From contig NZ_ML178723.1 in NCBI RefSeq assembly GCF_004360155.1, positions 259 through 64,258 on the forward strand: a stretch of DNA of 64,000 nt, given 5' to 3'. Made by a program: the position numbers and the translations under genes. The notes under the pieces are model-generated. The model made no database searches. It had not been told where the DNA came from and saw only the letters and a list, made by a program, of their open reading frames with translations. The DNA comes from Paraglaciecola marina. Its GTDB lineage: Bacteria > Pseudomonadota > Gammaproteobacteria > Enterobacterales > Alteromonadaceae. The stretch's first letter is position 1, and each line of letters begins with the position of its first letter. Positions 12,290 through 13,863 of this stretch are shown here, piece after piece.

Positions 12290-12735
12290 AATACTGATCC
12301 CTTACTTTGGAAGATAAAAATAGTTGTAGCTGTGATTAGGCAAACATAACCACTAACTTTCAGTGAGTCCAAAAGTAGATGTTTGAATTAAGTTACAGTA
12401 GTAAGCAAGCAATACACCACTATTAAAGACAAGACGTTACTTAGTTCTATTCAGGTTTCTAGGTGTTAGGTTTGCTGAAGTGTATTGAAATTATTAAGTT
12501 CAGTTAGTTGGTTGTAGTGGTAGTTTAACTTTAAGTATCTTTATGCATTGCTTAGATATTTTACATTGAAGCACTTAAATGATGCGACGCCTTTATTTTA
12601 AATTCGTAGGCGGCGTTGTCGCATCATGGATGCTAATTGGTAAGACTTATGCTTGCATCTGATTATAACGAGATATGAGTGGGCAGTTCAGAGTGTCTCT
12701 TAGGTAAAAATTATAATAAAAATAGGATGTTAACC
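12290..12735. other. 446-base divergent intergenic region with a long inverted repeat
   Basis: This gene-free stretch separates the minus-strand NhaC gene from the plus-strand oxidase gene and must hold both promoters. Its one conspicuous element is an inverted repeat ATGATGCGAC (12579-12588) / GTCGCATCAT (12618-12627) with extra GCC/GGC complementarity inside. It is GC-richer than its surroundings and lies about 109 bases upstream of the oxidase start. It could be an operator, an attenuator hairpin or a small RNA; I cannot choose. I see no credible protein-coding frame in the rest. Confidence 0.5.
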
Positions 12736-13863
12736 ATGTTTCAGCAAGATATAGAGCGTAGACACTTTTTGCAAGGTATTGGAGTTGGGGCTGTTTCAGC
12801 GTCATTATTTGGTTGTGTTCAAACACCGGAAAAGCGCGGCTTTGAACGTCCTTTTTCAAGAAAGCCTCTTGTTGCTCCCAAGATTGATAGAAATAATATT
12901 GTGACACAAGTGGTTGGCCATAGACCTTTTCGCGCAGAAGGGTTTGTGGTGCGCAGTGAAGCATTTGGTGAGAAAGTATTAGTGCACAACTATGGACACG
13001 GTGGTGGTGGGATCACCCTATCTTGGGGCTCATCGGCTTTGGCTGTAAAGGAGGTAAAAACTCAAGAAAACAAACAAGCGGCTGTTATTGGCGGTGGAGT
13101 CATGGGCTTGACGACTGCAAGGTTATTACAAGAAGCGGGATGGAAAGTCACCATATACACCAGGGAAATGGCAAGACATACTACTTCACAAGTGGCTGGA
13201 GGTGAGTGGGGACCTTATAGTGTGCATGAACCTAAGGTATCCAGCGACGCCTTTAAACGACAATTGCAATTAGCTGCAAAAATTGCCCATGAAACCTTCG
13301 CTAGAATGGTGGGGGATGACTACGGTATTCAGTGGATGGAGTTGTACACAGCAAGTAATACTAAACCTAAGGGGGACTCTCCTTTTAGTCAATATTACCC
13401 CTATCGAGAAACCTTTGGGCCAGACCAGCACCCTTTTCCAACTGACTATTGTACGGTTTCTGCAACCATGCTGGTTGAAACTACCACTTTTTTGCGTCGC
13501 TTAATTCAAGATGTACGTTTAGCTGGTGGTGAGTTTGTAATCCGTGATTTTAAAGATCAAGACACACTACACACGCTGTCTGAACCAGTGATATTTAACT
13601 GCACAGGCTTGGGTTCTAGGTCATTATTTGGAGATCAAGGTATTACACCAGCAAAAGGCCAATTGGTATTATTGCCTCCAGATCCCGCTGTGGATTACTT
13701 AACTGTAGGTGGTGGGACAGGCTCCCTTTATATGTTCTCCAGAAATGACTACATGATTTTGGGCGGCACCTTTGGGCTTGACGATTGGTCAACAGAGCCT
13801 GACCCTAAAGAGACAGAAAGAATTATCAAGGAAAGCCAACAGTTTTTTGCATGGTTAGAATAG
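12736..13863 (+). CDS. Tat-exported lipoprotein, D-amino-acid-oxidase-like FAD oxidoreductase with permuted domain order
   Basis: Starting at the ATG at 12736 (AGGA at 12724-12727), the protein is 375 residues. Residues 8-13 (RRHFLQ) form a twin-arginine signal and Cys27 in LFGC a lipobox, predicting a folded, membrane-anchored enzyme outside the cytoplasm. The FAD Rossmann motif GGGVMG is at 119-124 rather than near the start. The NYGHGGGGITLSWG motif that ends ordinary D-amino-acid oxidases comes before it, at about 85-98. The C-terminus instead ends after an LGGTFG strand. This order is what a circular permutation would give. Substrate is probably an amino acid or imino acid; electron acceptor unknown. 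Confidence 0.78.
   Translation: MFQQDIERRHFLQGIGVGAVSASLFGCVQTPEKRGFERPFSRKPLVAPKIDRNNIVTQVVGHRPFRAEGFVVRSEAFGEKVLVHNYGHGGGGITLSWGSSALAVKEVKTQENKQAAVIGGGVMGLTTARLLQEAGWKVTIYTREMARHTTSQVAGGEWGPYSVHEPKVSSDAFKRQLQLAAKIAHETFARMVGDDYGIQWMELYTASNTKPKGDSPFSQYYPYRETFGPDQHPFPTDYCTVSATMLVETTTFLRRLIQDVRLAGGEFVIRDFKDQDTLHTLSEPVIFNCTGLGSRSLFGDQGITPAKGQLVLLPPDPAVDYLTVGGGTGSLYMFSRNDYMILGGTFGLDDWSTEPDPKETERIIKESQQFFAWLE

Follow-up and report, generated by a model that had tools for sequence, protein, structure and literature searches.

A D-amino-acid-oxidase-type flavoprotein of Paraglaciecola marina with a circularly permuted domain order and a predicted Tat lipoprotein signal

We analyzed a window of 64,000 nucleotides from Paraglaciecola marina (RefSeq assembly GCF_004360155.1, contig NZ_ML178723.1, forward-strand positions 259 to 64,258). 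The open reading frame (ORF) at positions 12736 to 13863 of this window, on the plus strand like all features given below, encodes a protein of 375 amino acids plus stop codon, termed P0001, which the ORF and its Pfam match identify as a permuted D-amino acid oxidase (DAAO)-like FAD oxidoreductase with a Tat-like signal. Its start was picked from the alignment with relatives, the in-frame alternatives being ATG at 12727 and GTG at 12679. The protein comprises (i) a putative twin-arginine signal peptide (residues 1 to 26; 12736 to 12813), in which R8 and R9 are kept in most of the aligned members, (ii) the lipobox cysteine Cys27 (LFGC; 12814 to 12816), (iii) a relocated module (residues 45 to 108; 12868 to 13059) that corresponds to the C-terminal segment of a canonical DAAO, namely, the GLRPxR strand, the HNYGHGG motif, and the last helix, and (iv) the canonical N-terminal four fifths (residues 109 to 375; 13060 to 13860), which hold the FAD-binding Rossmann part together with the greater portion of the substrate domain. 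The relocated module contains Arg63 (12922 to 12924) and the segment HNYGHGGGGITLSWG (residues 84 to 98; 12985 to 13029), and the remainder contains the dinucleotide-binding motif GGGVMG (residues 119 to 124; 13090 to 13107) and Tyr332 (13729 to 13731). The positions that an earlier note on this DNA had assigned to R8-R9, LFGC27, HNYGHGGGGITLSWG, and GGGVMG agree with the sequence.

DAAO is a textbook flavoenzyme for which many structures have been solved. In the ordinary enzyme, the Rossmann strand begins at the first residues and HNYGHGG lies at the C-terminal end, an order that was found for P0001 neither with Pfam nor with PDB or BLAST comparisons. The native sequence scored 97.8 bits against the Pfam profile DAO (PF01266; cutoff, 27.9) in two swapped pieces, with residues 48 to 99 matching profile positions 298 to 346 and residues 115 to 371 matching positions 2 to 297. 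A rotated version, produced in silico by joining residues 109 to 375 to residues 45 to 108, matched the same profile in a single stretch (residues 7 to 326 to positions 2 to 350) at 108.7 bits. The PDB sequences behaved in the same manner. Residues 112 to 365 and 56 to 105 of native P0001 aligned with residues 12 to 265 and 280 to 332 of 6rkf, respectively, and the matched segments of pig DAAO, 3 to 249 and 268 to 325, were likewise swapped. Among the 17 DAAO and D-aspartate oxidase (DASPO) sequences listed at an E value of ≤1e-5, all aligned with the rotated protein in one stretch and 16 aligned with the native one in two stretches; the best match of the rotated protein was 6rkf (5 to 327 to 13 to 331; E value, 1.8e-27). 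BLAST against 10 canonical bacterial DAAOs returned two swapped pieces per target for the native sequence and one piece for the rotated sequence, which covered 313 to 336 columns in nine targets and 156 in L137, the most divergent of the 10; for L127, the E values changed from 2e-28 and 1e-10 to 3e-43 upon rotation.

The two segments of P0001 thus map to complementary, nonoverlapping parts of the parent protein in swapped order, and the full-profile match, together with the GxGxxG and HNYGHGG motifs, places the protein among the DAAO-type members of the DAO superfamily. Because of its swapped order, we classed it as a permuted variant and not as a canonical DAAO. At the level of sequence, P0001 is a DAAO-type flavoenzyme with a circularly permuted chain, as the earlier note had proposed, and, judged from the same alignments, the moved part is approximately the last 55 to 65 residues of the ordinary enzyme, about one fifth of it.

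A search of genome contigs from 84,980 species returned at least 597 matching stretches, at least 590 of which were relatives, and the best 80 were kept. The swapped order was present in all 80 (78 recognized by pattern; L077 and L093 by eye), a statement that covers these best 80, of which L092 is cut by a contig end, with the other 510 lying outside it. According to their record titles, the 80 relatives belong to the Gamma- and Alphaproteobacteria, Gemmatimonadota, Acidobacteriota, and Verrucomicrobiota, along with one Zixibacterium and one Mycobacterium, so that the earlier suspicion of a family trait holds for these 80 relatives, across several phyla. Conservation was assessed in A2, an alignment of 69 rows that consists of P0001 and 68 of the 80 loci, near-copies and incomplete loci having been dropped. 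R63, H84 to G90, G119, G121, and G124 are invariant in its 69 rows.

With 26 loci fetched later, the 80 relatives form a set of 106 permuted loci, which is counted without P0001, the close relatives L010 to L016 and L019, L156 (missed by the pattern), L159 to L161, and repeated loci. In 89 of the 104 loci in which it was measured (106 examined; range, 35 to 43), the distance from HNYGHG to GxGxxG was exactly 35 residues. This compares with 25 to 33 residues between the start of HNYGHG and the C terminus in the 10 canonical proteins, which indicates that the old termini were fused almost without a linker. In this join, the moved part adjoins the former N-terminal beta strand. The loop at which the chain was opened is situated between the final helix of P0001 (residues 357 to 374 of the model described below) and the strand at residues 57 to 66. 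As read from these sequences, the new N terminus is located at a formerly internal loop and carries the twin-arginine signal and the lipobox. The complementarity of the Pfam pieces, the identical order in 80 of 80 relatives, and the fixed 35-residue spacing argue that the swapped order is not due to chance. An ordinary DAAO with an upstream copy or fusion, or an artifact of assembly or reading frame, would produce a similar appearance; we consider this extremely improbable, since the same order recurs at all 80 kept loci in several phyla, including records titled as complete genomes (CP096134.1 and NZ_CP115960.1), and none of the 106 permuted loci has the second HNYGHGG motif near the C terminus that a duplication intermediate would show. 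The case that the earlier note had named as contrary to its proposal, namely, the ordinary order preceded by a fused segment, is thereby eliminated at the sequence level.

Searches with A2 in individual phyla showed an uneven distribution of the two orders. In the Pseudomonadota, 15 of 299 genomes (that of P. marina included) had matches, and all 16 matches spanned the junction; up to six candidates were scored per genome, and canonical copies may thus be missed. Among 149 actinomycetotal genomes, 12 had matches (up to 13 scored), 11 of them to canonical forms only and one, Mycobacterium montefiorense (G349), to one of each, the permuted L094/L121 and the canonical L125. The Acidobacteriota yielded matches in 13 of 119 genomes (up to 16 scored), with 10 permuted, two canonical, and one (G517) that comprised the Rossmann part only. 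Thirteen plasmid records matched, of which six (H1 to H6) spanned the junction and the other seven covered residues 100 to 374 or less. Closer to P. marina, a match to P0001 was present in 9 of 60 genomes (its own included) from 3 of 39 genera, a patchy distribution that marks the gene as accessory; the orthologue of G006, a member of the same genus as P. marina, is split over two frames (L016 and L019). The P. marina genome contains a second permuted copy (G000:C6:182799-183923; L005, L018, L118), which is 35% identical, has both an RR and a lipobox, and clusters phylogenetically with L107 and L108.

The tree contained 113 rows, and a single branch with support values of 98/98 separated the 103 permuted sequences (rotated) from the 10 canonical ones, corresponding to one label change between the two forms. 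The tree is unrooted, long branches and uneven composition were flagged during its construction, and its canonical side is drawn entirely from the search of the Actinomycetota; L053 and L092 were not part of it, nor were L077, L093, and the canonical L133 and L135, which the pattern missed. Within these limits, its topology fits a single origin of the permuted form. The permuted Mycobacterium copy (L094/L121) was nested among sphingomonads, a placement that makes horizontal transfer likely.

The AlphaFold2 model computed from A2 had a pLDDT of 91.1 and a pTM of 0.87; values below 50 were confined to residues 1 to 25, and the model was confident from residue 41 onward (means of 10-residue blocks, ≥80). 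A model from the single sequence (pLDDT, 32) was discarded. The first 33 Foldseek matches of the A2-based model were all DAAO or DASPO chains. With VIA-align, residues 111 to 375 superposed on residues 2 to 266 of 6rkf_B (Z score, 23.4; root mean square deviation [rmsd], 2.3; 256 residues aligned), and residues 113 to 375 superposed on residues 1 to 271 of pig DAAO 1an9_A (Z score, 22.8; rmsd, 2.2; 251 residues aligned). Among the 50 matches shown, DAAO and DASPO scored between 20.9 and 23.4, compared with 15.7 to 17.6 for other families (glycine, sarcosine, and other oxidoreductases). Both programs are sequential aligners that leave residues 45 to 110 unaligned, and the absence of a family from their output excludes nothing.

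The placement of the N-terminal module follows instead from the sequence matches, from its modeled strand-strand-strand-helix succession between residues 57 and 105 (strands 57 to 66, 71 to 77, and 80 to 86; helix 89 to 105), and from the confidence of the model. These data strongly imply that the moved segment would occupy the place of the DAAO C terminus in the predicted fold. The structural comparison suggested in the earlier note covers one part of the chain: residues 113 to 375 of the confident model match residues 1 to 271 of pig DAAO, and the N-terminal segment lies outside the sequential alignments. The fact that these alignments leave the module unplaced would also agree with a domain-swapped oligomer, in which the module completes the adjacent subunit and not its own fold. 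We regard such an arrangement as improbable, because the model is confident from residue 41 as a monomer and the nearly linkerless join (35 residues compared with the canonical 25 to 33) suits an intramolecular connection.

We subsequently analyzed the N-terminal extension using a rule that requires RR or RK followed by 11 uncharged residues at most 115 residues ahead of HNYGHG. The rule was satisfied at 101 of the 106 permuted loci, compared with 800 of 5,300 shuffled upstream stretches (15%). Three of 10 canonical upstream stretches likewise satisfied it, probably through translation of noncoding DNA, so that it is uninformative on canonical enzymes. A lipobox was present in at least 91 of the 106 loci according to a loose rule, and L052, L053, and L150 have one by eye as well. 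In A2, for which the starts of the relatives were set upstream of an RR wherever one occurred, R8 is Arg in 66, R9 is Arg in 65, and C27 is Cys in 63 of the 69 rows. P0001 scored 12.9 bits with the Pfam family TAT_signal, below the cutoff of 22.7, and its genome encodes TatC. With its RR, hydrophobic stretch, and lipobox cysteine, P0001 has the sequence features of a Tat-exported lipoprotein, in agreement with the twin-arginine signal and the lipobox Cys27 described in the earlier note. According to the +2 sorting rule, a residue other than Asp after the cysteine directs a lipoprotein to the outer membrane. This residue is Val in P0001 and, among the 63 sequences with the cysteine, Ala in 38 and Asp in none, which suggests that P0001 is sorted to the outer membrane.

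Five loci deviated from the RR rule. L094 of M. montefiorense has no RR, and L117 has no signal and contains a stop inside the match. The remaining three (L100, L101, and L115) start near the domain and have neither a Tat-like signal nor a lipobox; in L116, which is sister to them, a Tat-like signal is present and a lipobox is not. Export is therefore a common feature of the family (101 of 106) but not a universal one, since L100, L101, and L115 lack the signal. The idea that permutation always goes together with export was rejected, as these three proteins are permuted without a signal.

The active-site Arg and Tyr of pig DAAO both have counterparts in P0001. Arg63, invariant in the 69 rows, is aligned with Arg283 of pig DAAO, which we take to bind the substrate carboxylate, Gly90 is aligned with Gly313, and Tyr332 (Tyr in 59 rows and His in 10) is aligned with Tyr228, presumably an active-site residue of the pig enzyme. 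Position 325 corresponds to Arg216 of DASPO, which we assume to bind the acidic side chain of its substrate; P0001 has a glycine there, as do 48 of the 69 rows, so the arginine of a D-aspartate oxidase is missing. In the alignment, the loop that carries Tyr224 of pig DAAO is shorter in P0001. These residues favor a small, nonacidic D-amino acid as the predicted substrate.

The same permuted, exported flavoenzyme may nevertheless act on a compound other than a free D-amino acid, for example, on glycine, sarcosine, an opine-like amine, the N-terminal D-residue of a peptide, or an imino acid. The DAO superfamily spans many amines, glycine oxidase, sarcosine oxidase, and proline dehydrogenase are among the structural neighbors, and the shorter Tyr224 loop, the His that replaces Tyr228 in 10 of the 69 rows, the Gly at the DASPO Arg216 position in 48, and the varying gene neighborhoods would be compatible with such a substrate. 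We judge this reading to be rather unlikely, although it has to be taken seriously, as DAAO and DASPO are the closest families by fold and sequence (Z scores of 20.9 to 23.4 compared with 15.7 to 17.6 for amine oxidases among the matches shown), the carboxylate-binding arginine is invariant, and HNYGHGG is a DAAO-type motif.

The gene neighborhoods were inspected for indications of the substrate. The neighbors of P0001 in the window encode an NhaC-type antiporter, an M28 peptidase, and a DUF2239 protein and do not name a particular substrate. Neither BLAST clustering of ORFs nor a Pfam tally revealed a neighborhood conserved beyond clades. The tally covered 113 of 124 nearest neighbors from 65 of the 80 loci and was blurred by antisense ORFs in high-GC genomes; its most frequent families were Proteasome (HslV-like) and AAA_2 (HslU-like), with seven occurrences each among the 113 neighbors, and none of the 25 families shown, out of 90, was specific for D-amino acids. 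At sphingomonad loci (L042:7180-7878, L045:9110-10489, and others), the permuted gene adjoins genes for HslV-like and HslU-like proteins, and in L062 and L088 it is located between them. The most informative neighborhood is that on a Kozakia plasmid, in which the permuted gene is followed after 5 bases by a cytochrome c gene and is preceded by genes for a beta-lactamase-fold hydrolase, a DadA-like protein (NF001933; 361 bits compared with a cutoff of 383), a second annotated serine hydrolase, and an S9 peptidase, in this order. The ORF L040:3999-5363, which begins approximately 80 bases downstream of the permuted gene, has subthreshold matches to cytochrome c and Cu2_monoox_C, and homologues of it are found approximately 0.9 kb downstream in L037, L038, and L049. 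In some gammaproteobacteria, a gene of this kind (this ORF and cluster c3; 9 loci) is located a short distance downstream of the permuted gene. These few cases hint at peptide-derived D-amino acids as substrates and at a periplasmic electron acceptor.

Among known proteins, DAAO and DASPO (pig DAAO, 1kif and 1an9; 6rkf, titled human DASPO) share with P0001 the fold of residues 111 to 375, the FAD-binding GxGxxG, HNYGHGG, the carboxylate-binding Arg, and the active-site Tyr, at 22 to 26% identity over the structural alignments; P0001 differs from them in its permuted order, its Tat-like signal, its lipobox, and the Gly325 at the position of DASPO Arg216. The canonical DAAOs of Actinomycetota (L125, L127 to L132, L134, L136, and L137) are colinear with rotated P0001 (28 to 31% identity) and, unlike P0001, have the Rossmann motif first and HNYGHGG last. 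The D-amino acid dehydrogenase DadA, which oxidizes D-amino acids, is also a DAO superfamily member but has the canonical order, with its Rossmann motif at the extreme N terminus; P0001 matched the DadA family NF001933 marginally (23.7 bits over residues 116 to 160), and none of the 25 NCBIfam families shown, out of 95, reached its cutoff. The nearest functional analogue is pvLAAD, a membrane-bound L-amino acid deaminase that Proteus exports via Tat; the chain order of pvLAAD is presumably canonical. According to PMC5651824, pvLAAD is an FAD amino acid deaminase that its Tat peptide carries across the membrane and that stays anchored; its electrons are proposed to enter the membrane chain, and azide reduced its activity just slightly. 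It differs from P0001 in that it acts on L-amino acids and has an uncleaved Tat anchor in place of a lipobox (PMC5651824). A list in PMC12502724 includes "D-amino acid oxidase" among the proteins released by Asaia, and passages of PMC3608174 contained nothing on an exported DAAO. Among the open-access papers retrieved, judged by title and beginning of the abstract, none dealt with a permuted form of DAAO or of a DAO flavoprotein.

Taken together, we consider it probable that P0001 is a circularly permuted, envelope-anchored D-amino acid oxidase or dehydrogenase, for which substrate and acceptor are inferred. P0001 would fold and bind FAD in the cytoplasm, and the folded holoenzyme would cross the inner membrane via Tat, become lipidated at Cys27, as the motif suggests, and, with Val and not Asp after the cysteine, probably continue to the outer membrane. 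In the periplasm, Arg63 and Tyr332, conserved active-site residues, may position the substrate, either a D-amino acid or a small amino acid resembling one; a hydride would be transferred to FAD, and the resulting imino acid would hydrolyze to a 2-oxo acid and ammonia. FADH2 might be reoxidized by O2 or possibly by a periplasmic c-type cytochrome. A widespread permuted form that nearly always has an export signal would mean that D-amino acid oxidation may occur in the bacterial envelope, adjacent to D-amino acids derived from peptidoglycan.

It is conceivable, although we hold it to be doubtful, that the permuted order represents an export adaptation, in which a break within a loop and fusion of the former termini shifted the N terminus from the Rossmann strand to a flexible loop that accommodates the Tat signal and lipid anchor, and that it arose once and spread across at least six phyla, with one lineage on rhizobial plasmids having lost or never had the signal. 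If so, a cytosolic or peroxisomal-type oxidase would have become an envelope-tethered enzyme, and the permuted DAAO would represent a natural experiment in which chain topology was reshaped where a folded flavoprotein needs an N-terminal signal for export and lipidation.

Those plasmid records that give such genes a name list them as "FAD-dependent oxidoreductase." On the plasmids of Rhizobium, Bradyrhizobium, and Mesorhizobium (L100, L101, and L160), the DAAO-like gene, annotated as two ORFs in L160, is followed by a gene for a thiamine-pyrophosphate enzyme, and in L100 and L101 it is preceded by a gene for an FAD-binding oxidoreductase.
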